Shown here piece after piece: positions 1-32,192 of a DNA stretch of 64,000 nt (within the stretch, counting starts at the first letter, position 1; every line of letters starts with the position of its first letter). The stretch is taken from positions 1 to 64,000 of the forward strand of contig JAGQUX010000008.1 in the NCBI GenBank assembly GCA_020438215.1. The letters are read 5' to 3'. The notes under the pieces were generated by a model. That model did no database searches. It worked only from the letters and a program-made list of their open reading frames with translations, and was not told the DNA's origin. The DNA is from Armatimonadota bacterium. GTDB taxonomy: Bacteria > Armatimonadota > Fimbriimonadia > Fimbriimonadales > Fimbriimonadaceae. Position numbers and translations under genes: made by a program.

Positions 1-1
1 T

Positions 2-100
2 GGCGACGAAAGAGTCAAGGAAATCGCTCGGATGCTCGCTGGAGAGCAGATCGGGGAGTCCGCTTTAGCGAATGCAAAAGAAATCCTCAATCAGGGCTAA
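2..100 (+). CDS. recN: RecN-like DNA repair ATPase, C-terminal end only
   Basis: An open frame enters from the left edge and encodes 32 residues before a TAA. It reads EIARMLAGEQ followed by ESALANAKEIL, which resembles the conserved C-terminus of RecN, the SMC-like ATPase of double-strand break repair (the family ends in a similar R-EIARML-G----ALAHAKELL pattern). Only this tail is visible, so the catalytic motifs cannot be checked. The identification depends on the tail motif alone. Confidence 0.6.
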   Translation, partial: GDERVKEIARMLAGEQIGESALANAKEILNQG

Positions 101-177
101 AACCGGGACGAACTGTATCGTTTTGTTATCCCGGGCGTCAGGCCATATGTACAACTCGGTTGGAGTAACAAAAACTT

Positions 178-1686: not shown

Positions 1687-1712
1687 ATTTTTTGTCTCGA
1701 AAATCTTCTCTC

Positions 1713-1745
1713 CGCCGCTCCACCCGATTTGGAGCGGCGTTTTTT
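1713..1745 (+). terminator. Intrinsic terminator of the DUF4139-like gene
   Basis: A perfect 10-bp stem (CGCCGCTCCA, 1713-1722, pairing with 1730-1739) has a 7-nt loop and runs into a T tract at 1740-1744. The T tract overlaps the end of the convergent pth gene. There is no matching A tract on the other side, so it acts mainly on the plus strand. Confidence 0.9.
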
Positions 1746-2343: not shown

Positions 2344-2353
2344 GCCGCTTCCA

Positions 2354-4326: not shown

Positions 4327-5356
4327 TTCGCCTCACTAAGAATAACAATAATCCAGACAGCGCCATCGCAATCAGATACAGTATCCACACCGTTTGCCTT
4401 TGATTCAGTCCCGTCCCGAGAAGCGTGTGGTGCAAGTGCCGCTTATCTGGCTGGGTGATCGGCGTTCGGGAAAGCACCCTCCGCGTCATGACAAACACAG
4501 CATCAAAGAGCGGAATCCCGAAAACAAGAAGCGGAATCAAAACCGCTAGCGTCGCCGCCGTTTTGAACGCCCCAACAATGCTGAGGGATGCGAGCAAGAA
4601 TCCGAGCGTTTGCGCTCCGCCCGTCCCCATGAAAATCTTGGCCGGGTTGTAGTTGTATCTCAAAAAGCCGAGACTTGCCCCTGCGATCGCCATCGCCAGT
4701 AGCGCCACACGGGGTTGACCCTCCAAAGTCGCGATCACGCCAAGAGTCGTCGCTGCAATCGTCGAAATCCCGCACGAGAGCCCGTCAATCCCATCTATCG
4801 TATCCATCGTCTTTGTGACAACGAATATGTAGATCGCCGTGAGAGGAATCGCAAATAACCCAAACCCGAGCCAACCATCATCCAGCCAAGGCAATCCAAT
4901 TCCCGTGATCTGAACGGTTCCCACCGAGCTACTAAAGAACTGAACCCCCACGCCCACCAGCAGCAACACGGCAAGCTGAATCTTTGCTGAATATTGGTGA
5001 AGATCATCCAGCGCTCCATACACCACCATCACAATGGAGCCAAGCAGAATCCCTATCAAATACGGAGGGAAGGGAGCCTCCGGGTAAGCAAACGGCAACA
5101 CGGAGCAAACTGCCACCACAAATGCAATGAAGATGGCAATTCCACCCCAACGCGGCGTTGGTTCGGTATGAACTCGGCGGTCGTCGCGGGTGGGGTCGTC
5201 GACCGCCCCTTTGGAAATTGCAAACTTGCGGACAAAGGGAGTGACCAGCAACGAGACCACCAGCGCGATCAATCCAGTCAGGATTGGCGTTCGAAAGCCG
5301 GGAATGAAGTTCTCCCAGCCTCCCTGCAAATCGGCGATCAGGCTCAAGCTTGGCAC
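4319..5356 (-). CDS. Polyprenyl-phosphate sugar-1-phosphate transferase (WecA/TagO/MraY family)
   Basis: 345 aa integral membrane protein with about ten hydrophobic segments. It is predicted to transfer GlcNAc-1-P (or a related sugar phosphate) to undecaprenyl phosphate, the first committed step of glycan assembly. Family motifs seen: VDDPTRDDRRVH and PTPRWGG near 37-53, DDLHQ near 115, TMDTIDGIDGLSCG near 183, and the HIHH-type cytosolic loop as RHLHHTLL near 307, which marks WecA/TagO rather than MraY. It overlaps wecB by 8 nt and the dCMP deaminase gene by 13 nt. MraY is less likely because no mur genes are nearby. Confidence 0.88.
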   Translation of the reverse strand: MPSLSLIADLQGGWENFIPGFRTPILTGLIALVVSLLVTPFVRKFAISKGAVDDPTRDDRRVHTEPTPRWGGIAIFIAFVVAVCSVLPFAYPEAPFPPYLIGILLGSIVMVVYGALDDLHQYSAKIQLAVLLLVGVGVQFFSSSVGTVQITGIGLPWLDDGWLGFGLFAIPLTAIYIFVVTKTMDTIDGIDGLSCGISTIAATTLGVIATLEGQPRVALLAMAIAGASLGFLRYNYNPAKIFMGTGGAQTLGFLLASLSIVGAFKTAATLAVLIPLLVFGIPLFDAVFVMTRRVLSRTPITQPDKRHLHHTLLGTGLNQRQTVWILYLIAMALSGLLLFLVRRSG

Positions 5357-5829
5357 CCTATTTCTTCCAGACGATTCTCAGCGTACCGAAAGAGCTTGAG
5401 ATCGGCCAAACGGAACAGTTCCAGCGCAAAATCGTCCGGGTAATCCCCTTCAAAGATCACTGCTTTGATGCCGCCGTTGATCAGCATCTTGGCGCAGGTG
5501 TTACACGGCTGGCAAGTGACATAGATCGTTGCTCCTTCCGTTGAAATCCCGAGTTTTGCCGCTTGGAGGAGCGCATTCTGCTCAGCGTGGAGCGAGCGGA
5601 TACAATGCCCGGCCCGCATACAACCGTTCGGCCAATCGTTCTCAGGTCCACCTTCTGGGCAGTGAGGGAGTCCGCTGGGCGCGCCGTTATATCCCGTAGC
5701 GAGAATCCGGCGATCCTTCACGACCACCGCACCCACTTGACGACGCGGGCATGTCGCCCTGGTTTTCACCAGATGGGCGATTTCCATGAAGTATGTGTCC
5801 CAACTCGGCCGCGCCGACATTACTCGCAA
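5344..5829 (-). CDS. dCMP deaminase (ComEB-like cytidine/deoxycytidylate deaminase)
   Basis: 161 aa zinc-dependent deaminase converting dCMP to dUMP for thymidylate synthesis. The sequence shows TCPRRQVGAVVV near 26-37, the zinc and proton-relay motif HAEQNALLQ (His and Glu) near 80, and PCNTC near 107 supplying the two zinc Cys. Extra residues in the GLPHCPEGG and GHCIRSLHAE segment match the dCMP deaminase subgroup with a second metal-binding Cys/His set. Its end overlaps the glycosyltransferase start by 13 nt, so it is probably the first gene of the five-gene minus-strand operon ending at pth. Confidence 0.92.
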   Translation of the reverse strand: MRVMSARPSWDTYFMEIAHLVKTRATCPRRQVGAVVVKDRRILATGYNGAPSGLPHCPEGGPENDWPNGCMRAGHCIRSLHAEQNALLQAAKLGISTEGATIYVTCQPCNTCAKMLINGGIKAVIFEGDYPDDFALELFRLADLKLFRYAENRLEEIGCQA

Positions 5830-5854
5830 TTATGACTGGTCTGGCGGGTTCAGT

Positions 5855-5888
5855 TTGAGTCTGGGGAGTCTGTTTTCCCCAGACTCAA
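5855..5888. terminator. Strong hairpin between lemA and the dCMP deaminase gene
   Basis: A perfect 13-bp inverted repeat (TTGAGTCTGGGGA, 5855-5867, pairing with 5876-5888) around an 8-nt loop lies just after the lemA-like stop and 26 nt before the deaminase start. Neither strand has a real T tract, so this could be a factor-assisted terminator, an mRNA 3'-end stabiliser or an attenuating structure. Confidence 0.55.
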
Positions 5889-5899
5889 TTGCTAGAAGC

Positions 5900-6463
5900 T
5901 CACACCGCCGTGGAAGGAACCTGATACACCACCGGATCAGCTTCAAAGAATGACGCAGGAGTTCCCTTCACAACCAAATTAGAAGGAAACATCTCCAGAA
6001 GATTGTTGTACGCCCGGGCATTGCCATTGTAGAACCGACGAGCGGCGGCAATCCGATCTTCGGTCATGACAAGCTCTTGCTGCAATGCCAGAAAATTCTC
6101 GTTGGCACGGAGTTGGGGATATGCCTCCAAGCGAGCTACCAACTGATTAACGGCTTGGACAAACTCTTTCTCACGGTCGTAGCGGTGATGTTCTGAACGC
6201 AGCTCTTGAACCGCTGCCTCCCGAGCTTCTGCCAACCGTGTGAAGACAGCTTCTTCGTGCTTGGTGACCCCCTTCACCATCTCAACGAGGTTCGGGATGA
6301 GGTCGTGGCGTCGTTTGAGTTGGATTTCAATATTGGAACGGCTCTCGTACAGGTTGTTACGCAATGCCACCCCCCGATTCTGGGTGGCAATCAACCAAAT
6401 CACTGGGAGGATAACGAACGCCGCTAGACAAAATACTGGGGCAATAATTTCCGTGTCCATCAT
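5900..6463 (-). CDS. lemA: LemA family membrane-anchored protein
   Basis: 187 aa from the chosen ATG at 6463, which overlaps the upstream stop as ATGA; a longer reading begins at 6532 but buries this coupling. An N-terminal TM segment (residues about 8-25) is followed by the LemA helical signature: NNLYESRSNIEIQLKRR near 33, then HDLIPNLVEMVKGV near 50, and a long helical bundle with NARAYNNLLEMFPSNLV near the end. LemA function is poorly defined; it often neighbours DUF3137-like membrane proteins, and here two such paralogs precede it in the same operon. Confidence 0.88.
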   Translation of the reverse strand: MMDTEIIAPVFCLAAFVILPVIWLIATQNRGVALRNNLYESRSNIEIQLKRRHDLIPNLVEMVKGVTKHEEAVFTRLAEAREAAVQELRSEHHRYDREKEFVQAVNQLVARLEAYPQLRANENFLALQQELVMTEDRIAAARRFYNGNARAYNNLLEMFPSNLVVKGTPASFFEADPVVYQVPSTAV

Positions 6464-7173
6464 CGTCCGTAATCCTTCCGCAAATAGTCTGGCACGATTG
6501 CTTGAATATCCATCATGTATCGCTCCGCCCAAATAATGAACTGCTCATCCAGCTTCCCGCTCTGGTAGAAGATGAAATCCCCGAGTGAGACTTCAAAATG
6601 CCACATCGGCCATCGCATAAAGAACTCCATCATCTTGGGGGTGAGGAAGTCGTAAGCAAACTTTTCTTGAGGGCTTTGAACAAGGAACCGCTCATTAAAT
6701 TCCGCTGATTCCAACTCAATATCTTGCTTGCCAAACTTCTTAGCGAGCCACAAGAATGTTCCCGCCGGATGCACCCGAAGTGGGGGTGAATAGAAAGGCG
6801 TATCCAAAATTGCCACCTTGTAATTGTAATAATGCGTGTCTTCGCCCGAACCCTCTTCAAACGTATATTCAAAGATCATCAGCTCGCCATGAGGGGTCTG
6901 CTTTCGCATCTCGAAATTGATCTTGCGGTTGTCCCCACGATTGAACAGTTGCACCGTCCCCGCGCCATCTGAGGGCGGCTGCGTTCTCCCGCCGAAGAAA
7001 TCCCACCAGGTGCCATCGAACTGCTTATTGACAACCTCGCCACGGTAAGAGAATCCATGTTTGGCGGCAAGCTGAGCCATATATTCCAGCCGCTTTTGCC
7101 GGGATAGATAAGCAACAATGGAAATCACTCCAAAAATGACCAAAGCCAAGACTATAAACGGCGCAAAATCCAT
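6460..7173 (-). CDS. Membrane-anchored DUF3137-like protein, paralog 2
   Basis: 237 aa. One N-terminal TM helix (about 5-24) is followed by a soluble alpha/beta domain. It shares a recognisable pattern with the preceding gene product: a KHGF or LHGY segment, WW followed by a GA.QAPSDGA-like stretch (TQPPSDGAGTVQLFNRG here), HGELMIFEYTFEEGSG, and a C-terminal IELESAEFNERF then FLTPKMMEF segment. The arrangement next to lemA recalls DUF3137/LemA neighbourhoods in other bacteria, but the family assignment is by eye. It starts 1 nt from the previous gene's stop and ends in an ATGA overlap with lemA, so the three are translationally coupled. Confidence 0.7.
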   Translation of the reverse strand: MDFAPFIVLALVIFGVISIVAYLSRQKRLEYMAQLAAKHGFSYRGEVVNKQFDGTWWDFFGGRTQPPSDGAGTVQLFNRGDNRKINFEMRKQTPHGELMIFEYTFEEGSGEDTHYYNYKVAILDTPFYSPPLRVHPAGTFLWLAKKFGKQDIELESAEFNERFLVQSPQEKFAYDFLTPKMMEFFMRWPMWHFEVSLGDFIFYQSGKLDEQFIIWAERYMMDIQAIVPDYLRKDYGR

Positions 7174-7886
7174 CAGTTGCTCCCACCAAAATCCTGCCGC
7201 ACATACCCCGGAATCCGCTCTAACACTCCGTTCAAATGCCGTTCTGATTCACCCACAAAATCAAGTGACAACTGCCCGGCTTGGTAGATGATGAAATCGC
7301 CATAAACCACTTCCATACTCAAAAATCTCTGACGTAAGCACCACTCCATCATTTCCGGGGTGAGGAAATCAAAGGCAAACCGTTCTTCAGATGCCTTGAC
7401 CACGAACGCCCGATTGAATTCATCGGATTCCAATTCAATATCCTGCATTCCCAGCCCTTTGCCCATGACATGCAGAAATGTCTGGGGATGGATCTCCACC
7501 CTCGGAATGGCGAGCCGTGAATCCAGAATTGCAACCGAGAAAGTGTGCGTCGAGCGATTCTTGCCTGAGCCAGTTGTGAATTGATACTCGAAAATAATGA
7601 GCTCGCCATGTTCTGTTCCTCGGCGGAACTCATAGCGGACGCGGCGGCTAGAACCTCGGTTAAAGAGGCTGACCTCCGCCGCACCATCGGTTGGGGCTTG
7701 GCTTGCTCCGACCAACATCCCCCACCAATCTCCTGTCGTGTTGGTTGGTACCTCTCGCCGGAATGTATAGCCGTGGAGCAAGGCATATTCGGCGAGTTGG
7801 TCACCACGCACCTTCTCAGACCACCACATACCAATAATCAGTCCAGCTATCAGCAGACAAAAAAGTATGAATATTGCGATTTCCAT
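7173..7886 (-). CDS. Membrane-anchored DUF3137-like protein, paralog 1
   Basis: 237 aa from ATG 7886. A GTG at 7934 would extend it by 16 residues, but that start sits upstream of the terminator hairpin of the cyclophilin operon, so the ATG is preferred. One N-terminal TM (about 3-24) then a soluble domain with GDWWGMLVGASQAPTDGA, EHGELIIFEYQF, and DIELESDEFNRAF followed by DFLTPEMMEW, parallel to the next gene. No catalytic motif is evident. It heads a three-gene unit ending in lemA. No Shine-Dalgarno sequence is visible and only 6 nt separate the hairpin base from the ATG region, so how it is transcribed is unclear. Confidence 0.7.
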   Translation of the reverse strand: MEIAIFILFCLLIAGLIIGMWWSEKVRGDQLAEYALLHGYTFRREVPTNTTGDWWGMLVGASQAPTDGAAEVSLFNRGSSRRVRYEFRRGTEHGELIIFEYQFTTGSGKNRSTHTFSVAILDSRLAIPRVEIHPQTFLHVMGKGLGMQDIELESDEFNRAFVVKASEERFAFDFLTPEMMEWCLRQRFLSMEVVYGDFIIYQAGQLSLDFVGESERHLNGVLERIPGYVRQDFGGSN

Positions 7887-7892
7887 GAAACA

Positions 7893-7927
7893 GAAAAGAG
7901 CGGCGAGCTGCTTCAGCCCGCCGCTCT
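7893..7927 (-). terminator. Intrinsic terminator of the cyclophilin operon
   Basis: On the minus strand AGAGCGGCG (7919-7927) pairs with CGCCGCTCT (7897-7905) around a partly paired loop, followed by TTTTCTGTTT. It lies just after the stop of the first cyclophilin gene and immediately before the ATG of the DUF3137-like gene. Confidence 0.85.
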
Positions 7928-7955
7928 CAATCACTCAATACGAGTGGAGCTTCGC

Positions 7956-8510
7956 TTAGGATTCAAGTGGCCAAGTCGTGACCGTAACCTTTTCCATCAC
8001 CGCAGGATTATCCTCAAGCGGATTGTCCCGGTGGTCGCGAGGCAGGTTCACAATCGTCTCAACAACATCCATCCCCTCGATGACTTGCCCGAACACCGAA
8101 TACTGGCGATCCAGGTGCGGGGAGGTTTTGTGCATCAAGAAGAACTGTGAGCCAGCCGAATTCGGATCGGCAGTGCGTGCCGCGCTCAGAATGCCCGGCG
8201 TATGAGGAATCTCATTGAACTCCGCATCGATCGTATAACCTGGGCCACCTGTTCCGTGATATTCACGCGGCATCTCGCGGGAATGCGGGTCGCCGCCCTG
8301 AATCATGAATCCAGGAATCACGCGGTGGAATCGCACACCATCATAGAAGCCTTCGGAAGCCAATTTACGAAAGTTGTTTGCATGACCAGGTGCGTGATCA
8401 TCAAAAAACTTCACGACGATGCGTCCGTGATTAGTTTCTACAACTGCGATTTGATCGCCATCATTCGGGACAACTGCGCCAGGAGCGGCGGTGCTACTCA
8501 GTTCTGCCAT
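7956..8510 (-). CDS. Peptidyl-prolyl cis-trans isomerase, cyclophilin type, cytoplasmic
   Basis: 184 aa. No signal peptide, so probably cytoplasmic. The cyclophilin core is complete: GFYDGVRFHRVIPGFMIQGGDP near 54-75 holds the catalytic Arg and Phe/Met residues, SAGSQFFLM near 117 holds the Gln-Phe-Phe of the active site, and YSVFGQVIEGMDVV near 136 is the C-terminal signature. It speeds proline isomerisation during folding. It starts one base after the stop of the next cyclophilin gene in the operon. The three cyclophilins here are clearly paralogous. Confidence 0.95.
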   Translation of the reverse strand: MAELSSTAAPGAVVPNDGDQIAVVETNHGRIVVKFFDDHAPGHANNFRKLASEGFYDGVRFHRVIPGFMIQGGDPHSREMPREYHGTGGPGYTIDAEFNEIPHTPGILSAARTADPNSAGSQFFLMHKTSPHLDRQYSVFGQVIEGMDVVETIVNLPRDHRDNPLEDNPAVMEKVTVTTWPLES

Positions 8511-8511
8511 G

Positions 8512-9144
8512 TTATTTGCTCACCGGCCATTTTACGACAGCCATCGAATCAATGCTCACGGCGGCGTTCTTAGCCACCTTGCCATTTTGATTGCGATCAC
8601 CGGTTTTCACGATCTTATCAACCACTTCCATCCCGCTCAGAACTCGACCAAACGCCGAGTAGTTTTTGTCCAGCGATGGATAGTCTTTGTGCATGATGAA
8701 GAATTGGCTGGAGGCCGAATTCGGATCTTGGCTTCGCGCCATGCTCACAATCCCGCGCTTGTGCTTGAGATCCGTGAACTCCGCATTGACCGTCACGCGC
8801 TTGCCTTCTTTCTCGTTCCCGCCATAACCCCAAGTCTCGTATTTATCAAGGCTACGAGAATTCGGGTCGCCGCCCTGAATCATGAAGTCTTCAATACAGC
8901 GGTGGAAGCGAATCCCATCGTAAAACCCAGCCTTCGCCAGATCAGAAAAGTTCTTGGCGTGGAGCGGCGCGATGTCCGGGAAAAGCTGGATGACAATGTT
9001 GCCCATGCTGGTTTTCATCACCACGACTTCATCGCCGTTTTTCACGGTCGGAAGCGGGATTTGGTCATCGGTCTGCGCGATGGCCGTTCCCGATAGCACG
9101 GGGCACAGCAGTGCCGTGGCCAAAATCAACCCTTTGGTGAACAT
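8512..9144 (-). CDS. Peptidyl-prolyl cis-trans isomerase, cyclophilin type, exported
   Basis: 210 aa. Residues 1-23 form a classical signal peptide (MFTKGLILATALLCPVLSG then AIAQ), so the mature enzyme should be periplasmic. The cyclophilin core follows: GFYDGIRFHRCIEDFMIQGGDP near 73-94, SASSQFFIMHKD near 144, YSAFGRVLSGMEVVDKI near 162. The His-Arg-Cys version of the catalytic segment is shared with the next paralog. Its start overlaps the preceding gene's stop by one base (TAATG), implying translational coupling. Confidence 0.95.
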   Translation of the reverse strand: MFTKGLILATALLCPVLSGTAIAQTDDQIPLPTVKNGDEVVVMKTSMGNIVIQLFPDIAPLHAKNFSDLAKAGFYDGIRFHRCIEDFMIQGGDPNSRSLDKYETWGYGGNEKEGKRVTVNAEFTDLKHKRGIVSMARSQDPNSASSQFFIMHKDYPSLDKNYSAFGRVLSGMEVVDKIVKTGDRNQNGKVAKNAAVSIDSMAVVKWPVSK

Positions 9145-9851
9145 TATTCGGAGCCACCTGCTGGGGGGTCAATAATGGTTGCCTTCTTCAAGACAATCGC
9201 TTCGTCTGCTTTCACCTTGCCGTTGTCGTTCGGATCACCGGTGACAACAATCTTATCAACGACATCCATTCCGCTGACAACTTCGCCAAACGCAGAGTAT
9301 TGACCGTTCAATCCGGGACTGTCCGCCTGCATGATGAAGAACTGGCTACTCCCGGAATCTGGGCTTTGGCTACGAGCCATCGAAAGGATTCCGCGCTTGT
9401 GGTCAATATCGTTGAACTCAGCCTTGACGTTCTTTTCTAAACCATCAATCATGTTGCCGCCAGTTCCCCACTCAGCGTAGAGGCCAAGATCCTTAGATTT
9501 CGGATCGCCGCACTGAACCATGAAGCCAGGAATGCAACGATGGAATCGCGTTCCATCATAAAAACCGCTCTTGACCAACTCTTTGAAATTTGCAACGTGC
9601 AGGGGAGCCTTTTCGGGGAAGAACTTGACGGTGATGTTGCCCTTATCCGTTTCCAGCAAAACGTACTTGCCATCATCTTCTGGCATCGGAGTTTCTTCCG
9701 CCTTCGCTTCGGAATTGCTCGAAGTATCGGTGCTCGTTTCTGATGATTCACCCAGAACACTATTGCTCGTGTCCGGTTCATTTGAATTACACCCGACAAC
9801 AAATGGGACAAAAAGTAATGTGGCGGCGGGCCACAGCATCCACTTGGACAT
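9144..9851 (-). CDS. Peptidyl-prolyl cis-trans isomerase, cyclophilin type, lipoprotein
   Basis: 235 aa from ATG 9851. An in-frame GTG lies 6 nt upstream, but a CATAAT -10 seven bases before the ATG favours the ATG as a leaderless start. The N-terminus is a lipoprotein signal ending FVPFVVGC, so the protein should be lipid-anchored. A Ser/Thr/Glu-rich linker (about 25-55) leads to the cyclophilin core: GFYDGTRFHRCIPGFMVQCGDP, SGSSQFFIM, and YSAFGEVVSGMDVV. It is the first gene of a three-cyclophilin operon. Confidence 0.93.
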   Translation of the reverse strand: MSKWMLWPAATLLFVPFVVGCNSNEPDTSNSVLGESSETSTDTSSNSEAKAEETPMPEDDGKYVLLETDKGNITVKFFPEKAPLHVANFKELVKSGFYDGTRFHRCIPGFMVQCGDPKSKDLGLYAEWGTGGNMIDGLEKNVKAEFNDIDHKRGILSMARSQSPDSGSSQFFIMQADSPGLNGQYSAFGEVVSGMDVVDKIVVTGDPNDNGKVKADEAIVLKKATIIDPPAGGSE

Positions 9852-9858
9852 GTTCACT

Positions 9859-9864
9859 ATTATG
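9859..9864 (-). promoter_or_regulatory. Putative -10 element of the cyclophilin operon
   Basis: CATAAT on the minus strand ends 7 nt before the ATG at 9851. That spacing would place the transcription start at or next to the start codon, giving a leaderless mRNA. No Shine-Dalgarno sequence is present. Confidence 0.55.
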
Positions 9865-9971
9865 TCAGGAACCTGGAATCAGTTCCCGGCTCAACCCAAA
9901 TAGCAAATTGTCTTCTGCCCACTTTACAAGTTCAACTGAACCTGTCAAGATTACGGAGTAGAGAAAATTCA

Positions 9972-10655
9972 ATGCGAAATCTCACTTTAGCCCTGTTCGC
10001 CGTGGCTTCGGTTTCGGCGTTTGCTCAGAGCGAAATCGATGTATCGAATCGCTCACAATTCATCCAGCGCTCTGGCTATAAGCTAGAGAGTGGAAACGAC
10101 CGCGAAACGTACTTTGGGGTTTCAGGCAACACCAGCCCTGGAGCAACAGGTTTTGGGCTCAATTACTACATTGCCCGCACCAGTTCTTTCTACGGCTTCT
10201 TCGTTAACCAGACTACGTTCTCAAGCAATACCGCAATTAATGCCGGGTTCTACGGAGAGCGGTTCGTCTATAGCTTTGGTGGCGATGAAGGTGAAGGCCA
10301 CACAGCCCGCTTGATCTATGGGTTCAACCACACCAAACCGTCGTTCAACTATTCGACCGTTGGTGTCACTGTTGCTAGCCCCGATTTCGATGGATTTGGC
10401 TACAACGCAACATTCTCTTGGATCAAGACATGGTCTAACGGGAGCGATAACGACGGCGTTCTGGCTGACCTCGGGTTCTATTACGGCATGCCGGATACGA
10501 ACTGCCGATTTGATGCTGGCTATATCTTTGAATCCGGGCTCGCGGGGGAAGACGATTACTTCCTACGCATGTCTAAGAATGTTGGTGATGCAACCCTGCG
10601 GCTAAAACACATGAAAAATAACCGCTGGGGATTCGACGTCATCATCCCCTTCTAA
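9972..10655 (+). CDS. Putative outer-membrane beta-barrel protein
   Basis: 227 aa. The signal peptide MRNLTLALFAVASVSAFAQ should be cut after AFAQ. The mature part is rich in Tyr, Phe, Gly and Asn in alternating beta-strand patterns and ends in DVIIPF, the terminal Phe typical of BAM-inserted barrels. No family is recognised. The start is supported by GGAGTAGAG about 8 nt upstream. It is monocistronic, flanked by the divergent cyclophilin operon and the convergent carbonic anhydrase gene, with a shared hairpin downstream. Confidence 0.65.
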   Translation: MRNLTLALFAVASVSAFAQSEIDVSNRSQFIQRSGYKLESGNDRETYFGVSGNTSPGATGFGLNYYIARTSSFYGFFVNQTTFSSNTAINAGFYGERFVYSFGGDEGEGHTARLIYGFNHTKPSFNYSTVGVTVASPDFDGFGYNATFSWIKTWSNGSDNDGVLADLGFYYGMPDTNCRFDAGYIFESGLAGEDDYFLRMSKNVGDATLRLKHMKNNRWGFDVIIPF

Positions 10656-10665
10656 GCTGAATTGC

Positions 10666-10691
10666 TTCCTGGGCTGTTATTAGCCCAGGAA
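10666..10691. terminator. Hairpin between convergent barrel and carbonic anhydrase genes
   Basis: A perfect 10-bp stem (TTCCTGGGCT and AGCCCAGGAA) with a 6-nt loop lies in the 40 bp between the two convergent stops. Neither side has a good T tract (TCTCTC follows on the plus strand), so terminator function is plausible but weakly supported. Confidence 0.55.
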
Positions 10692-10695
10692 TCTC

Positions 10696-11343
10696 TCATT
10701 CCGGTGTGTGCCAACGACCGAGTTCTAGTTCCCCGGTTGCCATATCAAAAATCGCGCTCACAACACCGAGTTCCCCGGAGCGCACCCGATCCGCTAGTAA
10801 CGGGGATTGATCAAACATCTTCTCAATCACACGATCCACGTTATGTCGAATCGTGTTATCCAGGTGATCACCACCTAAATCACAAGTGGCTTCGACTGAT
10901 GGTCGAATTTCTTCCACGAGGGCATCAATATTAGCGGTGGAAGCAGGTGCTGTCCCTGCGTATGTCGTGACCGCTCGCTCCACCGCCGCACAGCGGTGGT
11001 GCCCTAAAACAACAAGAAGAGGGGTGCCCAGCACAGCCGATGCAAACTCGATCCCCGCAGTTGCCACCCGATCCAAGACGTTCCCCGCCACTCGAATGGT
11101 AAATATGTCGCCAAAACCTTGATCAAAGATCAACTCAGGAATCATCCGGCTGTCCGCGCAAGTCACCATCACGGTATGGGGGTCTTGGATTTCGGCGATT
11201 TCGTCCCGGCGCTCAGGGGTTCTGTTCGGCCCAACCGCCTGATTTGAAAAGTACCGGATGTACCCCTCACGCAACTTTTCCAGGGATTCATTCGCGCGCG
11301 CGCAGGTACTAATTTCCTTCATATCCGATAACACTGACAACAC
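10696..11343 (-). CDS. Beta-class carbonic anhydrase
   Basis: 215 aa. It hydrates CO2 to bicarbonate with a zinc held by Cys62, His115 and Cys118; the Asp64-Arg66 pair sits in CADSR and the second motif reads LGHHRCAAV. The segment GDIFTIRVAGNV is also typical. The GTG at 11343 is chosen because a TATAAA hexamer ends 8 nt before it; an in-frame ATG at 11322 would give a protein 7 residues shorter. It stands alone, divergent from the M14 carboxypeptidase gene. Confidence 0.93.
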   Translation of the reverse strand: MLSVLSDMKEISTCARANESLEKLREGYIRYFSNQAVGPNRTPERRDEIAEIQDPHTVMVTCADSRMIPELIFDQGFGDIFTIRVAGNVLDRVATAGIEFASAVLGTPLLVVLGHHRCAAVERAVTTYAGTAPASTANIDALVEEIRPSVEATCDLGGDHLDNTIRHNVDRVIEKMFDQSPLLADRVRSGELGVVSAIFDMATGELELGRWHTPE

Positions 11344-11351
11344 CTCTCAAA

Positions 11352-11357
11352 TTTATA
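11352..11357 (-). promoter_or_regulatory. Putative -10 element of the carbonic anhydrase gene
   Basis: TATAAA on the minus strand lies 8 nt before the GTG at 11343. The spacing fits a leaderless transcript, and GAGAGG between them could alternatively act as a ribosome-binding site for the internal ATG. Confidence 0.5.
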
Positions 11358-11422
11358 CACCGCTCTCAATGTGATCGTCTCAAAAAACTTGCAATCAGTC
11401 TTGGGACATACTCAACTCATCT

Positions 11423-13105
11423 ATGGCTCACTTCGTTTTTGACCGGTATGTCCGGTACGCCGAACTCACCCAAATCCTCCAAGATGTTGCCGCAGAACAT
11501 CCCGAACTCGTGAACCTCTCCTCCATCGGCAAGAGCCACGAGGGACGGGACATCTGGATGCTGACGATTACCGATAGCTCGACCGGAAGCCACGACACCA
11601 AACCCGGATTCTGGTGTGACGGCAACATCCACGCCAGCGAGGTCTCTGCTTCGACGGCTGTGCTCAAGATCATTCAAACCTTGGTGGAGCAACGCCCCGA
11701 TGTCCTCAAAACGCGGAGTTTCTATCTTGTTCCGCGCCTCAACCCCGATGGCGCAGAGTGGGCGCTAGAAGATGTCCCACGCATCATCCGATCGAGCACC
11801 CGCCCCTACCCATACGACGAAGACGATCCGTACGGCTTGGAGCGACAAGACATCAATGGTGACGGCAAGATTCTCTCAATGCGGATTCCCGACCCCAACG
11901 GCCCGTGGAAAGTCTGCGAAGAGGAACCGCGTTTGATGGTCAAGCGCGAGCCCGGCGAAACTGGCGGCGACTATTATCGGATGATTACTGAAGGGCTGTT
12001 CCACAACTTCGATGGCCTGACTATGCGCCCCCGCAAGATCAAAGAAGGGCTGGACATGAACCGCAACTTCCCCAGCGGGTGGCGACCGGAAAACGAGCAG
12101 TATGGCGCTGGCCCTTATCCCACTTCCGAGCCCGAAATTCGCGCGGCGGTGCAGGCGATCACCGATCACCCCAACGTCTGCGGTGGAATCACATATCACA
12201 CTTTCAGCGGAGTGATCCTGCGCGTGCCAGGGCGTGGCCCCGACGACGACCTTCCGCCGGAAGATGTTTGGACAATGAAAGCGCTCGGAAAGAAAGGCAC
12301 CGAGATGTCGGGATACCCGTGCATCTCCGTCTTCCACGAATTCAAATACCACCCGAAAGAGGTCATCACCGGAGTTTTTGATGACTGGCTGTACGACAAT
12401 ATGGGCGTCTACGGCTGGACGGTCGAGATTTGGTCACCGCAGAGACAAGCGGGAATCGAGGACTACAAATACATCGAGTGGTTCCGCGATCACCCGCTGG
12501 AAGACGACCTGAAAATGCTCAAATGGAGTGATGAAAAGCTCGGCGGCAAAGGCTATTACAACTGGGAACCGTTCGATCACCCGCAACTCGGGCCGGTCGA
12601 AATTGGGGGATGGGATGGGCTCTATGCTTTCCGTAACCCGCCCGGCGAATTCCTAGAAAAGGAGATCACTCCGCTCGCCGATTGGGCGATCTGGATGGCG
12701 GGCACCACTCCCCAACTCACTGAGCGCGGCCTGATTATTGAACCGAAAGGCGACCTGCTCCACATTCGTTGGGCGGTGCAGAACTCCGGGTTCCTCCCCA
12801 CCAGCGTCACCGAGCACGCGGCGAAAAAGAAAATCGTTCGCGGCGTGATGGGCGAAATCCACTGTGTCTCGTCCGACCACGAATCCAAAGGCAATTCCAC
12901 ACCCGATTGGCTGGTGGCTGGCCCGATTCGTCAGGAGAAAGGCCAGCTTCGCGGGTGGAGCCAAACGCCGAGTTCCGGGTTTGGATGGAGCTTTGATTCC
13001 ACCGACGACATGGCGGTGTTTGAATGGGTGGTGAAGCCGGGGCAGTACCGACTCTCGGCTTGGCACGACCGCGCCGGCCGCTTGGAAGCGGAGGTGAGTG
13101 GGTGA
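11423..13105 (+). CDS. M14-family zinc carboxypeptidase
   Basis: 560 aa. The zinc ligands are visible: His70 and Glu73 in GNIHASEVS, and a third His near 259 in ITYHTFSG. The catalytic Glu is expected near 335 in GWTVEIWSP. After the peptidase domain (about 8-400), a C-terminal beta-rich region of about 130 residues probably forms an accessory domain. There is no signal peptide, so the enzyme may be cytoplasmic or exported by another route. The 3' end touches an AT-rich foreign-looking gene (TGATG overlap), so the natural C-terminus may have been altered when that gene arrived. Confidence 0.88.
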   Translation: MAHFVFDRYVRYAELTQILQDVAAEHPELVNLSSIGKSHEGRDIWMLTITDSSTGSHDTKPGFWCDGNIHASEVSASTAVLKIIQTLVEQRPDVLKTRSFYLVPRLNPDGAEWALEDVPRIIRSSTRPYPYDEDDPYGLERQDINGDGKILSMRIPDPNGPWKVCEEEPRLMVKREPGETGGDYYRMITEGLFHNFDGLTMRPRKIKEGLDMNRNFPSGWRPENEQYGAGPYPTSEPEIRAAVQAITDHPNVCGGITYHTFSGVILRVPGRGPDDDLPPEDVWTMKALGKKGTEMSGYPCISVFHEFKYHPKEVITGVFDDWLYDNMGVYGWTVEIWSPQRQAGIEDYKYIEWFRDHPLEDDLKMLKWSDEKLGGKGYYNWEPFDHPQLGPVEIGGWDGLYAFRNPPGEFLEKEITPLADWAIWMAGTTPQLTERGLIIEPKGDLLHIRWAVQNSGFLPTSVTEHAAKKKIVRGVMGEIHCVSSDHESKGNSTPDWLVAGPIRQEKGQLRGWSQTPSSGFGWSFDSTDDMAVFEWVVKPGQYRLSAWHDRAGRLEAEVSG

Positions 13106-14049
13106 TGTACTCAGATATTTCCCCACTCATTTTCACTAACCCAACAGGATGGATTCAAGTCTCGGTTGGAATTTTAGCAGGCGCGATATTCTCATTCCTC
13201 ATCACAAAACATTTTTCGAATAAGGAACAGAGAACTCTAACCTTATGTTACACAGTCCACGAACCTGCCAGAATGTCTGCAAAAGGTTGCGGCAAGCCAA
13301 AAAATATTAAAATGACTCTAGGAGATATTGAGATTGAATCAATATCGGCAAAATATTTTATTTTATGGAATTCTGGAAATGAGCCAATCTTTGGAAAATC
13401 TCATACACAGTGATCGTTCACTAAAGGAGGTGCTCCAGAAATCAGAATCACGCCTAATGCGCAAATTCTATCGTGCAAAATCCTCAGATCTAGTCGAAGA
13501 GGAGAAGAAGCCAGATTGCACATCAAATCCGAAGACACTTGCGAAATTCTATTTGAAGTACTTCAGCCTGGCGAATATATTTCTGGGTGTATTATCCACA
13601 ATAGCGCAGATAACTTAGTCACTATAGACGCAGAGTTTATAAACATAAAAAATAAAGTCAAGATGCTTCAACATCAAGATTTACGCCTATCTATTTCCGA
13701 GAAAACGGTGTCATTGTATCAAAAATTTATTATCAAAAATAGAAAATTATTTATACCCGTAATTACGTCCGTAGTTTTTGTATTGATATCCATTCAAATC
13801 TTTCCCATTATTTCACAATATTTACACATAGTTGATCCGTACTTAACAATCACCTTGTTACTTCTCTTCCCCTTACTACTTTACTTATTTCATTCTTATG
13901 AGCATGCTGAAATTGCATTAAAAAATAAATTTGAGATCACCTTCCTCGAATACAACTCAGATCTGAGTGCCATTCTAAATCTATTTGATAATCTCGCCGA
14001 AGAAGATATTATTGATGTAGCGTCAGTTGCCGAGCAGGATCAAATATGA
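13105..14049 (+). pseudogene. AT-rich membrane protein gene broken by an in-frame TGA
   Basis: One reading frame runs from ATG 13105 to TGA 14047-14049 with a single internal TGA at 13411-13413. Upstream of it are 102 residues with one TM (about 16-34) and a conserved-looking WNSGNEPI segment. Downstream, without any frame change, comes a matching beta-rich continuation (APEIRITPNAQIL, then FEVLQPGEYISG) and two or three TM helices near the end. The pattern resembles a known type of single-gene membrane protein in which a NSGNEPI motif is followed by such strands, so the stop probably splits one gene. Its base composition is far more AT-rich than its neighbours, suggesting transfer. A TTG at 13516 could restart the second half. 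Confidence 0.65.
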
Positions 14050-14087
14050 CATTCTGCCCTGACCCTGAGCCTCGGCCCCCATCCCGC

Positions 14088-15364
<1,277 letters not shown>

Positions 15365-15387
15365 GCCTAATCGCGAATCCCGCAATC

Positions 15388-15424
15388 GCCCCTTTTCGTC
15401 ATTTCAGATGGAAAGGGGCTTTTT
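15388..15424 (+). terminator. Intrinsic terminator of ahcY
   Basis: GCCCCTTT (15388-15395) pairs with AAAGGGGC (15412-15419), followed by five T. It lies between ahcY and the DUF2207 gene. Confidence 0.88.
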
Positions 15425-15447
15425 CATGCCTCGAACCCATTTTTCGC

Positions 15448-17304
15448 ATGAATCTCTCGCGCCTCATCCGCCTTCTGCTGATTTCAACTCTGTTATCAGT
15501 CTGTAGCCTTGCTTTCGGGCAGAGCTACTACGATTTTGAAATCGACCACATGGATGTCGAGCTCAAAGCAAGTGCAGACCGCACATTCCAAGTCCGCGAG
15601 AAAATTGATGTCACCTTTTATCAAACCAAGCGCGGCATCTTCCGGGAGATTCCATATTCCGTCCTGATGGAGAACGGAAAGCGCCGCACCATCCGCATCG
15701 ATCAAATCACTGTCACCGATGAATCCGGCAAGTCGCTGACTACAAAAACCACGATGAGCGGTGGAGTTATCAATATCCGGATTGGTGATGAAAACATCTT
15801 CTTCCCGCCGAATACGCAAAAGTCGTATGTCATCAAATACCGCGTTCGCGATGCGATCAACTTTTTCCAGAGTGAATCCGGTTGGGATTCTGGTCGAGCT
15901 GAAATCTACTGGAATATCACCGGCGATCAATGGCCAACGGTCATCCGAAGCTACTCGTACAACATCGAGTTCCCGTCCGTCACCGAAGGGACATACCGCG
16001 CTCGTATTTATTCCGGCTCCTACGGGTCGCGGGATTACGCCGAGCTCAATCGAGAAACCACGAGCACCGATGATATGCCAGGGATCACCGACTACCGGGC
16101 ATCTCTCACAAATTCCTCTCTCAAAGGAAATAGCCAGGCGGATGGCTCAATTGCTCTCCAGCCGTACCAAGGCGTAACTGCCGTCATCGGTGTGCCCGAT
16201 ACGGTCATCCTTCCTCCATCCCCGGCGGAACTCCGTGCCGCATGGATTCGCCAAAACCTTGGCTTTCTCATCCCTGTCTTCGTGACGGCCATTTTGGGGT
16301 TCTTCTGGTTCCTCTTTGGCCGCGATCCCAAGGTGCCAAAACTTGATGTTCGCTTTGAGCCTCCCAAAGATCTTGGCCCCGCTTTCTGCGGCGTTCTGAT
16401 TGATGACCGGGTAGACGCCCGGGACATTACGGCTGGACTCATGAATCTGGCAACGAAGGGGTTCATCAAGTTCGTCAGTACGCACCCTCATGGAGAGTTC
16501 GCCCCGAAGAGCACCAAGATTCTTTCGACCGGGAAAACCGACAAATCAAAGCTGACCACTTTCGAGAAGAAGCTCTTTGATGACCTGGACGTTAGCTCCA
16601 CCGGAATGTATGTCACCGAGATCAGCGAGCGACTCCGCACCAGCATGCCCGGGTTGATGAAGGAGCTACAAAACACCCTCAAACGACGAAAAATCTACAA
16701 CACTCTCCCCAGCGACACAAAGGGAACAACCGGGTGCCTTGGGATTATCCTGGTGGTTGGGTTGACCATGTTTGGAGGCATAGTTCTGGGACAAGATTTG
16801 GCTTGGGGTTCGTACCTCGTTGGTGGCGGAATCAGCATCATCCCACTCATCATTTTTACGAACCTGATGCCACGCCGAACATCGCGAGGCGCACAACTCC
16901 ACGCCGAGGTGATCGCATTCTTCGAGGCGATGAAATATCGCCAGCACTACCAGCAATGGTTCACCAAAACGAACCTGGATATGGCGAAGTACGAGGAGTA
17001 TCTTCCCTATGCCGTCGCTTTCGGATTGGTGGATGAATGGGAAGACATCTGCGGGCAAGTCGTAGATCGACTCCCGAGCTGGGCCGAAACCACGGCAACC
17101 GATTACCACTTCAACCAGGCGATGTTCTACAACTCATTCCATCGTAGTATTGGGCGTATGGAGCGAGAAGCGGCATCGTCTCTCGTTTCGGCACGCGCAG
17201 GTAGCTCAAGTAGTTCCAGTTCGTGGGGTGGAGGATCAGGGTTCTCGGGCGGAGGCGGATTCTCCGGCGGCGGCTTTGGTGGAGGAGGAGGAGGCTCTTG
17301 GTAG
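15448..17304 (+). CDS. DUF2207-type membrane protein with Gly-rich C-terminus
   Basis: 618 aa from ATG 15448; a longer reading from 15346 overlaps ahcY and is unlikely. A signal peptide (1-23, ending LAFGQ) precedes a DUF2207-like extracytoplasmic beta domain, with ISVKMKAD-type pattern replaced by IDHMDVELKASADRTFQVREKI near 30, then GIFREIPY and an RYRV-like YVIKYRV. One TM lies near 275-292 (IPVFVTAILGFFWFLFG), two more near 430-475, then a cytosolic segment and a C-terminal Ser/Gly tail with repeated GGGGF and GGGS units (about 590-618). Function is unknown; such tails are common in this family. Confidence 0.8.
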   Translation: MNLSRLIRLLLISTLLSVCSLAFGQSYYDFEIDHMDVELKASADRTFQVREKIDVTFYQTKRGIFREIPYSVLMENGKRRTIRIDQITVTDESGKSLTTKTTMSGGVINIRIGDENIFFPPNTQKSYVIKYRVRDAINFFQSESGWDSGRAEIYWNITGDQWPTVIRSYSYNIEFPSVTEGTYRARIYSGSYGSRDYAELNRETTSTDDMPGITDYRASLTNSSLKGNSQADGSIALQPYQGVTAVIGVPDTVILPPSPAELRAAWIRQNLGFLIPVFVTAILGFFWFLFGRDPKVPKLDVRFEPPKDLGPAFCGVLIDDRVDARDITAGLMNLATKGFIKFVSTHPHGEFAPKSTKILSTGKTDKSKLTTFEKKLFDDLDVSSTGMYVTEISERLRTSMPGLMKELQNTLKRRKIYNTLPSDTKGTTGCLGIILVVGLTMFGGIVLGQDLAWGSYLVGGGISIIPLIIFTNLMPRRTSRGAQLHAEVIAFFEAMKYRQHYQQWFTKTNLDMAKYEEYLPYAVAFGLVDEWEDICGQVVDRLPSWAETTATDYHFNQAMFYNSFHRSIGRMEREAASSLVSARAGSSSSSSSWGGGSGFSGGGGFSGGGFGGGGGGSW

Positions 17305-17342
17305 CCCCGATCACCTCAGCATGAATCCCGCAAAATAGAGTC

Positions 17343-18176
17343 GTGCCAATCCTGCATTATCCGATTCGTGGTCAGCGCCTGCAAATGGCGGTAGAGGTCA
17401 ACGAAACTCTCTTTTCTAATTCCAGCGAGTTTCAGCAGATTGACATCTATGACACCCCCGAATTTGGCAAGATGCTGTTCTTAGATGGACATGTTCAGCT
17501 TGCAATCCGCGATGAAGCCGCTTATCACGAAACGCTGGTTCACCCGGCAATGTGGTCGATTGACAATCCCAAGTCTGCCCTCATCATAGGCGGCGGAGAC
17601 GGCGGCATCCTCCGCGAAATCGCTAAACATCAGTCCATTGAGCGGATCGTGATGGTCGAAATCGACCAAATGGTGATTGACGCCTGCACTGAGCACCTTC
17701 CCGAACTCAATAACGGCGCATTCCAAGACCCTCGACTTGAACTCTTGATCGAAGATGCCTTTGCCTACATCGCCGCTATCGAGGAACAGTTCGACTTGGT
17801 CTTTATCGACGCTACAGATATCTATGAGGGCGAAGAAGGTGAGCTCAGTGAACAACTCTTCACCGGAAAATTCTACGCCGATTGCGCGAGTCGCCTCAAG
17901 CCGAACGGATTCCTTCTCACGCAATGCGACAACCCCGTTTTCTGCCCCTATACTCTTGAGCAAATCAAGCCTCAGTTCCAGAAGCATCTTGAGAGTGTGG
18001 GTGACTATTTTGCGCTCGTCCCATCGTTCGGAGGCTACAGCGCGGTTCTCTACGGATCACACCAAAACACCATCAAGCCCGAGATTCCTGCAGGTCACGG
18101 TATTGAACTCCGCTACTTGAACCAAGTGAACTTAAATCACTCATTTTCGCCGCGTCCATTCCCTTGGCCAATCTGA
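17343..18176 (+). CDS. speE: Spermidine synthase-like polyamine aminopropyltransferase
   Basis: 277 aa from GTG 17343. It transfers an aminopropyl group from decarboxylated SAM to a diamine. Seen: the N-terminal beta domain, FLDGHVQLAIRDEAAYHE near 45-62, IIGGGDGGILREIAKH near 80-95 (nucleotide-binding glycine loop), MVEIDQMVIDAC near 101, and VFIDATDIYEG near 153 with the catalytic Asp. The terminal 40 residues are less conserved. Related aminopropyltransferases use putrescine or agmatine, and the substrate cannot be fixed by eye. No speD is nearby. No clear ribosome-binding site is visible. Confidence 0.88.
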   Translation: MPILHYPIRGQRLQMAVEVNETLFSNSSEFQQIDIYDTPEFGKMLFLDGHVQLAIRDEAAYHETLVHPAMWSIDNPKSALIIGGGDGGILREIAKHQSIERIVMVEIDQMVIDACTEHLPELNNGAFQDPRLELLIEDAFAYIAAIEEQFDLVFIDATDIYEGEEGELSEQLFTGKFYADCASRLKPNGFLLTQCDNPVFCPYTLEQIKPQFQKHLESVGDYFALVPSFGGYSAVLYGSHQNTIKPEIPAGHGIELRYLNQVNLNHSFSPRPFPWPI

Positions 18177-18301
18177 GCAATCGGTGGAAATACTAGCCAG
18201 CAAATTCGCCCCGGTTTTGGTGCGGGATTCGCATTCTCCTGCTGAGAGTACGGGGAAATTGTACGAAACATCATGGCAATTCTCTTCTGAGATTGTTTGC
18301 T

Positions 18302-19081
18302 ATGCGTTTCCCTCGTTCAGCAATGGCATTGGCGGTTCTCTGCACCGCCGGACTGGTAGTCGCCGCATCGGGAGTTCTACTCCCGCAGGAAGTCCATCCT
18401 GCGTTTGCGCGATCCATTTCTAATGCCGAAAGTGCTTCTAGTTCTGGTAACAACCAAAAAGCTCTCGCCCTTCTGAAAGGCGTTGTTTACCCAGAAGGCG
18501 TTACGGTCAAAATCGATGAATCTTCCATTCCCGATGGCCGACGCAACGAAGCCTATAACGCAACCGCCGCCAGTATCAAAACTTGGCAGGCGGTGCTGAG
18601 CGGGGATTCGCCACTGCAATTCGTCGGCGCAAATGAAGAAGCGGACATTGTGATTCAATTCACAAACTCTATCCCCGCCGATAGCGCTGATTGTCTCGGG
18701 CTCATACAACTGAAGAAGGAATACCGCTGGAACAACTGGCAGCACGAGCTAGGTGTCAGCGGCACCATCCACGTCATGAAATCTTTCAATGGCAAGCCCC
18801 TCAAGTACGAAGAATGGAACGAGGTCATCTGCCATGAATTGGGACACTTGCTCGGTCTCGATGACGTGACAGAGAACGGAAAGTTGATGGGCCCCCTCCG
18901 TTTTGGGAAGCCGGTGCTTGCACCCGCAACCAATGAAGTCGATGCGGTGAAAACCCTGCGTCAAGCCGCACGACAACGCATCATCCAGATTGAAAAATCT
19001 CTTCGACAAGAAAACGAGACACCCCTGAGTGCTCTCCTCGACTCAACCGAATTCCAGCAACTTCACGGGTGTTCCTTGTGA
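18302..19081 (+). CDS. Secreted matrixin-like zinc metalloprotease
   Basis: 259 aa. An N-terminal hydrophobic segment (about 8-28) suggests export or anchoring. The zinc motif HELGHLLGLDD spans 178-188, giving His178, Glu179, His182 and the third ligand Asp188 instead of the usual His, a variant known in some metzincin-like (matrixin or snapalysin-related) proteins. An upstream segment DIVIQFTNS near 115 fits the edge strand of the metzincin fold, and KLMGPLRFG just after the zinc motif is the expected Met-turn region. The substrate is unknown. Confidence 0.75.
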   Translation: MRFPRSAMALAVLCTAGLVVAASGVLLPQEVHPAFARSISNAESASSSGNNQKALALLKGVVYPEGVTVKIDESSIPDGRRNEAYNATAASIKTWQAVLSGDSPLQFVGANEEADIVIQFTNSIPADSADCLGLIQLKKEYRWNNWQHELGVSGTIHVMKSFNGKPLKYEEWNEVICHELGHLLGLDDVTENGKLMGPLRFGKPVLAPATNEVDAVKTLRQAARQRIIQIEKSLRQENETPLSALLDSTEFQQLHGCSL

Positions 19082-19126
19082 AGAAACATGGAAAACATTG
19101 AATAGGCAGCAAAAGGTGCTACGAAT

Positions 19127-19348
19127 ATGGTGAACCCGACACAAATGTCAATGATGTCGACGCTCGCCGGATTGCAGCGCCTAGAGGCGCAACTCCATCG
19201 CGCCATGATGGAGGCTGGTGCCCCAGGCGATGCAAAAACCGAACAAGCGTCGCCCAAAGCCGAGCCAGCAGTCAAGCTGGAAGCTGATGCTCAACGTGCT
19301 TCGGCACAAGCAAAGAGCGTCATTACTGGTCTTGACCTGATGGCATAA
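19127..19348 (+). CDS. Small Ala/Glu-rich protein
   Basis: 73 aa. The ATG is preceded by AAAGGTG at a spacing of 9 nt. It is mostly helical, with an N-terminal QMSMMSTLAGLQRLEAQL stretch and an Ala/Glu/Lys-rich middle. No signal peptide or known domain is recognised. It sits 105 bp upstream of another small helical protein with a hairpin between, so the two may act together. Similarity to small motility-associated proteins was considered but is too weak to claim. Confidence 0.5.
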   Translation: MVNPTQMSMMSTLAGLQRLEAQLHRAMMEAGAPGDAKTEQASPKAEPAVKLEADAQRASAQAKSVITGLDLMA

Positions 19349-19373
19349 CAAAATCGGTAGCGGGATGATAAGC

Positions 19374-19401
19374 CCCGATTCCACCAACTGGTGGAATCGG
19401 G
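19374..19401 (+). terminator. Long perfect hairpin between two small genes
   Basis: CCCGATTCCACCA (19374-19386) pairs with TGGTGGAATCGGG (19389-19401), a 13-bp inverted repeat with a tight centre. No T tract follows, so it may be a regulatory structure or protein-binding palindrome instead of a terminator. Confidence 0.45.
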
Positions 19402-19453
19402 AACCCGTCCTGTTATCATCGCCCAGAACTTTCAACTGGAGGTTCAAAACAAA

Positions 19454-19681
19454 ATGATTAACCTAAACCCCGTAGACGGTTTTTCATCCGCCCTGATGGC
19501 TCTCCGCGATGCCGAGAGTCGTGCAGCAGGAGCGGCAGAAAAGCTTGCGTCCGAAGGGGTCGATGCGATGCCGGAAGTCGATATGGAACTCCGGTTATCC
19601 AAAATCCAACACAAATCCAATATTGCTGTCATCCGCTCTTTGGATGATATGAAAGGAAACCTCATCGACATGCTCGCATGA
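19454..19681 (+). CDS. Small helical protein
   Basis: 75 aa from ATG 19454, preceded by CTGGAGG 11 nt upstream; an upstream in-frame start at 19391 lies within a hairpin and is not preferred. The product is helical: MALRDAESRAAGAAEKL in the N-terminal half, and LRLSKIQHKSNIAVIRSLDD near the C-terminus. No domain is recognised. It follows another small protein gene and precedes a MarR regulator with its own start signal. Confidence 0.55.
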   Translation: MINLNPVDGFSSALMALRDAESRAAGAAEKLASEGVDAMPEVDMELRLSKIQHKSNIAVIRSLDDMKGNLIDMLA

Positions 19682-19694
19682 GCGTCTGACCCGG

Positions 19695-19700
19695 TAGACT
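19695..19700 (+). promoter_or_regulatory. Putative -10 element of the first MarR gene
   Basis: TAGACT ends exactly 7 nt before the ATG at 19708, with no Shine-Dalgarno sequence between. This is the spacing expected for a leaderless transcript. Confidence 0.6.
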
Positions 19701-19707
19701 CGCCCTT

Positions 19708-20148
19708 ATGTCCAGAGAACTCATAGGGGCGAGGGTTGCCACTCTCTATGAACTCCAATCTGCTTGGTTGGAGCCCCGCCTCCGTGACATCGGAGTTCGC
19801 TGGACAAGCTTCCAATTCCTTGCCGCCATTGTTGGTGCGGGTGAAGAAGCCAGCCAAGCCGAAGTCGCACGGCGGCTTGGGCTCTCTCCCGCCACTCTCA
19901 GCGAGACAGTACAGAACCATATCAACATTGGCTGGATCGAGCAGACCAAGTCAGAACGCGACAAGCGCCTCAAAGTGCTTCGACTAACCAACGACGGTAA
20001 GAAGCTCATGATGAAAATCCGGGCCCTTGTGGTGGAATGTGAAACTTTGGTTGCGAACTCTGTTTCTATCCCCGAGAGCAAAAAGTGTGCAAAAGCCCTG
20101 GACAAGATGATCGATGCTCTAGAAAATGCCCTGCAAGAACAGGGTTAA
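19708..20148 (+). CDS. MarR-family transcriptional regulator
   Basis: 146 aa. A winged helix-turn-helix occupies about residues 35-105: ASQAEVARRLGLSPATLSETV is the helix-turn-helix, followed by IEQTKSERDKRLKVLRLTNDGKKL, the characteristic wing. Helices at both ends form the dimer interface. MarR proteins usually repress a nearby gene and respond to small phenolics, metabolites or oxidation, but the target here is not evident. The start is supported by a TANNNT hexamer 7 nt upstream. Confidence 0.9.
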   Translation: MSRELIGARVATLYELQSAWLEPRLRDIGVRWTSFQFLAAIVGAGEEASQAEVARRLGLSPATLSETVQNHINIGWIEQTKSERDKRLKVLRLTNDGKKLMMKIRALVVECETLVANSVSIPESKKCAKALDKMIDALENALQEQG

Positions 20149-32025: not shown

Positions 32026-32192
32026 GAATACTGCATACGTTACCCTCCCCGGGCAACCTTCGGGGCGGTCTCTCCCGGATTTATCCACTCATGCTGATTC
32101 CATGGGCCGAGAACCGCAAGAACCAATAATCCTTGGGACAATCTGCACAATTTGGTACATTTTGAATCCCAGAGCCCGTAAGAAGAGAGAAG

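Follow-up and report, generated by a model that had tools for sequence, protein, structure and literature searches.

Gene organization at the locus

The window analysed here, a 64-kb stretch of DNA from an Armatimonadota bacterium, carries on its plus strand a gene that consists of 102 codons, an in-frame TGA (13411–13413), a further 211 codons and a terminal TGA (13105–14049, by translation of the frame). The gene is preceded on the same strand by a native M14 zinc carboxypeptidase gene (11423–13105; PF00246 and orthologs) and followed by an S-adenosylhomocysteine hydrolase gene (14093–15364, plus strand; PF05221 and PF00670). Its ATG at 13105 overlaps the stop codon of the M14 gene (TGA, 13103–13105), the 3′ end of which is the insertion site. 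Hydropathy and the profile matches described below assign to the part before the TGA (13105–13410, plus strand) an N-terminal hydrophobic segment and a WNSGN block, and to the part after it (13414–14049, plus strand) the rest of a predicted beta region and two C-terminal hydrophobic segments. The first canonical in-frame start codon past the TGA is a TTG (13516–13518, plus strand).

The 211-codon stretch behind the TGA was open in none of 20,000 base shuffles, and the alternative frames across it contain 13 and 16 stops. Stops with at least 100 open codons before and at least 150 after them number 11 in the window, TGA 13411 included; long open frames flanking one stop are not rare in themselves, and openness alone is weak evidence here. 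We take the interrupted frame to be real because both of its halves match one protein family. The case for a single gene across the TGA is argued from the equal composition of the two sides: GC content is 37.3% before the TGA and 35.1% after it, while the M14 gene has 58.2% and the hydrolase gene 54.8%, and GC3 is 0.333 and 0.336, against 0.705 and 0.622 in the two neighbouring genes. Positions 13105–14049 are one gene holding one stop, with a foreign composition. The sequence-only reading had described a frame unbroken on either side of the TGA, a start exactly at the carboxypeptidase stop and a base composition far from that of the neighbours, and all three observations stand.

A family of membrane proteins with a WNSGN-type motif

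Seven homologs were assembled: Agrobacterium plasmids contributed two, a Paraburkholderia plasmid and a viral-contig collection one each, and the phylum genomes G221 and G250 one and two, respectively; both G250 frames were trimmed by eye and are ambiguous in their starts. All are remote, with an identity to the window protein of 14–27% that varies by alignment. Against a profile built from these seven sequences, with the window protein left out, hmmsearch gave 27.8 bits for the part before the TGA (profile positions 8–80) and 20.7 bits for the part after it (profile positions 91–227), so that the two halves match the family profile in order and in the same frame. Shuffled versions of the first half were reported by hmmsearch in 786 of 1000 cases, the best at 4.9 bits, and those of the second half in 949 of 1000, the best at 6.3 bits; none reached 27.8 or 20.7 bits, respectively.

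The window protein has one N-terminal and two C-terminal hydrophobic segments. Exactly this layout is found in three of the seven homologs, an N-terminal segment in five and at least two C-terminal segments in six; the layout is not strict within the family. The product is predicted to be an uncharacterised membrane protein with terminal hydrophobic segments around a beta region. The earlier suggestion that residues on both sides of the stop belong to one type of membrane protein is borne out, since the WNSGN block, the block behind the stop and the hydrophobic segments at the ends recur in the remote homologs. For instance, WP_010974293.1, from plasmid At of Agrobacterium fabrum C58, resembles the window protein in its beta region, its WNSGN-type motif and a later F-x-L-x-P-type block; homologs of this type also carry hydrophobic segments at both ends and are annotated only as ‘hypothetical protein’. 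Unlike these homologs, the window protein has a loop that is 4–7 positions longer and a frame interrupted by a TGA.

Pfam holds no family for the window protein, an NCBIfam match (14.2 bits against a cut-off of 589) was rejected as chance, and PADLOC assigned no family to the window protein and five homologs (E 0.1). Two homologs match PHROGs of unknown function with E values of about 0.007. A by-product of this work is thus a membrane-protein family without a Pfam or NCBIfam name. Structure prediction from two sequences gave a mean pLDDT of 38.8 and placed residue 103 between strands 81–89 and 112–115, a placement of little worth at that confidence.

The read-through window protein had no matches in phages and plasmids (E 0.01), viral contigs or genome contigs, and BLASTN of the gene against plasmids returned only short matches, the best with an E value of 0.02. 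The family first surfaced in plasmids only at E 5 (10 Agrobacterium records) and in the phylum at E 0.016 (G221), and using these homologs or small alignments as queries brought in its further members. No new kind of member was added by L021 as a query in phages (E 0.1) or by L024 and L023 in plasmids. Patterns drawn from six sequences were too variable, and those drawn from three retrieved 162 genome-contig stretches, none of which was confirmed. The best other phylum match (L002, E 9.8e-5) was dropped, as it runs antisense to a long frame, presumably mutS as recognised by eye, and contains three stops. The weak phylum matches L003 and L005–L020, together with 13 matches without a locus, by design outside G000, were taken as chance on their pairwise listing.

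Probable foreign origin and the site behind the M14 gene

The window protein is unmatched in 60 relatives, seven genus mates included (E 0.001), and among 290 other genomes of the phylum only G221 and G250 match the family profile (E 0.01). Composition, the lack of a match in the 60 relatives and a location where sister species carry restriction-type genes agree with the proposal, made from the sequence at the outset, that the gene was acquired. That the acquisition was recent we infer solely from the absence of a second lesion.

Orthologs of the M14 gene are present in six of the seven genus mates, and in three of these six (G004, G005 and G006) restriction-type genes lie behind it. In G002 and G007, a TIM-barrel gene, convergent to the M14 gene, follows it directly. 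In G005, a gene for an NgoMIV-type restriction enzyme and a C5-methylase gene stand between the M14 and TIM-barrel genes, and the end of the enzyme gene has a 4-nt overlap with the M14 stop. In G004 this pair recurs at a distance of 8 nt from the M14 stop, followed by a TIM-barrel fragment, another frame and then the whole TIM-barrel gene. The fragment (L049, 3661–3855) corresponds to 65 residues of the end of the TIM-barrel gene, with 69% identity, and looks like a leftover of insertion. In G006, an SRA-HNH gene is located 19 nt from the M14 stop, with the TIM-barrel gene next to it, and in G001 the M14 gene is followed by a different gene, which we take by eye to be LacI-like. PADLOC lists both restriction–modification pairs, of G004 and G005, and not the SRA-HNH gene of G006.

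The 3′ end of the M14 gene is a site of gene exchange (window 13103–13105; L049, L050, L051, L048 and L036), where the distance between the M14 stop and the restriction-type genes of the three sister species ranges from −4 to 19 nt. The window gene resembles the occupants of restriction-gene integration hotspots in lying directly behind the M14 gene, as do the NgoMIV-type or SRA-HNH genes of sister species. It differs from the restriction-type genes of those species, which are convergent to M14, in being codirectional with it; it has no PADLOC match, and the TIM-barrel gene is missing from the window. An exact empty site for the window junction was not found among 30 relatives, in all of which the hydrolase gene was located; the 29 hydrolase loci that were fetched contain no M14 match, and 13 of these hold only more distant hydrolases.

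The native M14 end offers a Shine–Dalgarno-like GGAGGTGA that is well spaced for the ATG of the acquired gene (window 13090–13105). The GGAGG of this putative site (13090–13094, plus strand) still belongs to the M14 coding sequence and precedes the ATG at 13105 by 10 nt. At the M14 end of two sister species without the gene (L050 and L051), GCGGAGGTG is also present.

A restriction endonuclease gene lies nearby (about 0.8 kb) in one of the three homologs with annotated surroundings. This homolog, from an Agrobacterium At plasmid, has the endonuclease gene some 0.8 kb away on the opposite strand (L021, 2965–3735 and 4499–5617). A connection between the family and defence is no more than a lead. 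The trading of restriction-type genes at an M14-linked site within one genus is a second by-product of this work, and it gives reason to test the family for phage defence.

Sequence context of the in-frame TGA

The stretch that runs from the first NSGN residue to the Leu of the following block spans 34 positions in the window protein, the TGA included, versus 27–30 in the seven homologs. The TGA therefore falls in or beside a stretch private to the window protein. Opposite it, the homologs have V, K, P, R, K, G and W. Homologs that are two separate genes split at this place, the refuting case named by the sequence-only reading, were looked for: none of the seven is split and all seven read through. 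The sole TAA counted in the G221 homolog is the terminal stop of that gene.

The TGA lies within an imperfect palindrome (13409–13422, plus strand), which equals its own complement except for two mismatches. RNA folds that start at the TGA are no better than those of shuffled sequences (z 0.66 for 40 nt and 0.29 for 60 nt), and a 90-nt stretch including upstream sequence gave z −2.56, with 2 of 200 shuffles as good. Around the TGA (13390–13440), the fold stronger than shuffles arises via an inverted repeat that spans the stop. A compact fold in which the TGA is paired at the base reaches −1.9 kcal/mol and is less stable than the simple hairpin behind the TGA (−4.0 kcal/mol with flanks). An Rfam search of 13000–14200 gave three matches up to E 10, all well under the gathering scores.

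Interpretation of the stop

The premature stop probably reflects nonsense mutation of an accessory gene that was acquired at a restriction-gene site. An accessory gene would have been acquired horizontally and set flush with the native M14 stop codon, in the place that restriction-type genes occupy in sister species; a fairly recent nonsense change would then have created the premature TGA within a loop of the predicted beta region and cut the product to 102 residues, and the full protein would probably no longer be made. On this account, the stop would be real in the organism, ribosomes would end there and the change would be recent. The two sides of the TGA are similar in their composition at each codon position and none of the seven homologs is interrupted, which supports a nonsense change. 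The TGA stands where all the homologs read on, and the suggestion of a nonsense mutation, already made on first inspection, comes out as the best one. Against decay speaks that the 211 codons behind the TGA hold no further disabling change, as a long-dead gene would be expected to. Moreover, plain decay does not account for a perfect Shine–Dalgarno match past the stop or for a core common to a hairpin there and that of SelD. As a disrupted accessory gene, the locus would be ordinary.

That the TGA is instead an artefact of sequencing or assembly, the gene of the organism being uninterrupted, seems to us unlikely. The draft genome comprises 119 contigs and the rest of the frame appears intact, both of which would fit an error, but a substitution-type error in any given gene is unexpected at 99.37% completeness and 0.29% contamination, the sequence bears no sign of one, and a one-base error does not account for a loop that exceeds those of all seven homologs in length. 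The choice between nonsense mutation and error cannot be made from the sequence, because no close relative was found in the data searched; a nonsense mutation is the most likely, with an error ranking second. Neither an intact copy nor a close relative that would date the stop turned up in relatives, phylum genomes, phages, plasmids or contigs.

Another scenario, which we regard as improbable, is expression as two chains, with a stop at the TGA, a restart at the Shine–Dalgarno sequence behind it and, possibly, assembly of the two pieces in the membrane. In its favour is AAAGGAGGTG (13423–13432, plus strand), a putative 10-nt perfect Shine–Dalgarno match without another copy on either strand of the window; its longer form, AAAGGAGGTGNTCC, is found at a single place in the genome. 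Its GGAGG lies 10 nt before an ATC at 13441, the same spacing as between the GGAGG at 13090 and the ATG at 13105. Nine clusters on both strands, by our own grouping of the listed positions, bind the anti-Shine–Dalgarno sequence as well or better, including AAAGGAGGTG and one before ATG 13105. ATC is a very poor start codon, and ATC 13441 is the only candidate at Shine–Dalgarno spacing; the first in-frame ATG, GTG or TTG past the TGA, TTG 13516, is 102 nt behind it. Furthermore, the homologs are single chains and the Shine–Dalgarno resemblance was spotted after the fact. A stop followed by a Shine–Dalgarno sequence also has the appearance of a gene boundary, but the idea that two unrelated genes share one frame by chance has almost nothing to recommend it, as the two parts align one after the other to a single family profile and not one homolog is split. 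General readthrough, in which an ordinary tRNA would read the TGA inefficiently and a little full-length protein would suffice, agrees with the intact appearance of the second half. It is nevertheless highly improbable: TGA is also the true stop of both the window gene and the M14 gene, and among the eight tRNA genes read by ARAGORN the Trp tRNA has a CCA anticodon, UCA being found only in the tRNA for selenocysteine. Of the forms of readthrough, raised as an alternative by the sequence-only reading, selenocysteine insertion is the one chiefly to be considered, because the genome possesses the machinery for it.

This machinery comprises tRNA-Sec with a UCA anticodon (L039; 71.9 bits, cut-off 47), SelB (L055; 361.7, cut-off 242.25) and SelD (L063; 351.3, cut-off 125), the last with one in-frame TGA at what looks like its active-site motif. 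On these three genes, the genome very probably decodes selenocysteine, and for this reason hairpin-guided decoding of the window TGA by the genome's own SelB and tRNA-Sec was tested as a reading. The candidate signal is a weak hairpin of SECIS-like shape, GGAG-GTG-CTCC (13426–13436, plus strand), at a spacing of 16 nt between TGA and loop. The published bSECIS model (PMC13188914) has a loop of 3–9 nt, a stem of 4–16 bp, a G at loop position 1 or 2, a spacing of 16–37 nt and an energy limit of −7.5 kcal/mol, and the same paper states that some real elements fall outside the model. The window hairpin agrees with this geometry, having a 3-nt loop that begins with G, a stem of 4 bp and a spacing of 16 nt, three of the values being at the lower limit, but its energy, by our own calculation and not with the published bSECIS program, is −2.4 kcal/mol, or −4.0 kcal/mol for 40 nt from the TGA, and falls short of the limit; 60 nt from the TGA reach −8.4 kcal/mol owing to a second, separate hairpin. 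Such a geometry, moreover, follows 486 of the 826 TGAs in positions 1–20000, 30 of them at −7.5 kcal/mol or better; when the 60 nt behind the window TGA were shuffled, 103 of 1000 versions contained a hairpin at least as stable as the original one. The SelD hairpin, likewise by our own calculation, is strong (stem 8, spacing 33, −10.4 kcal/mol) and passes the bSECIS limits.

The two hairpins share the core GGAGGTNCTCC. Of its seven sites in the genome, only these two lie 16–37 nt behind a TGA that is preceded by at least 20 open codons and followed by at least 200. The core is, however, not enriched (seven sites in the genome versus six for a reversed control), the pattern is present in 8 of 100 shuffles of the window, and it was picked after both copies had been seen, which makes the coincidence weaker than it appears. 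Like SelD of the same genome and bacterial selenoproteins in general, the window gene combines an in-frame TGA, the presence of tRNA-Sec and SelB, and a hairpin behind the TGA with G first in its loop; unlike in SelD, this hairpin is far weaker and the position is private to the window protein. The residue opposite the TGA is never Cys, and no Cys occurs in the loop of any of the seven homologs, all of them remote. The deep-Sep authors state that a Cys homolog now seems to exist for every known selenoprotein (PMC12013277), a statement that selenocysteine at this position would break. Decoding of the TGA as selenocysteine is very unlikely. It would amount to a selenoprotein of a membrane family without a selenium link in the sources searched, with its Sec in a private loop, no Cys precursor and a minimal hairpin, read by SelB, that shares its core with the SelD element, and we hold such a protein to be very unlikely too.

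Elsewhere in the window, a molybdopterin oxidoreductase frame on the minus strand (29881–32088) matches PF00384 with 139.4 bits, and the matched part is free of inner stops.
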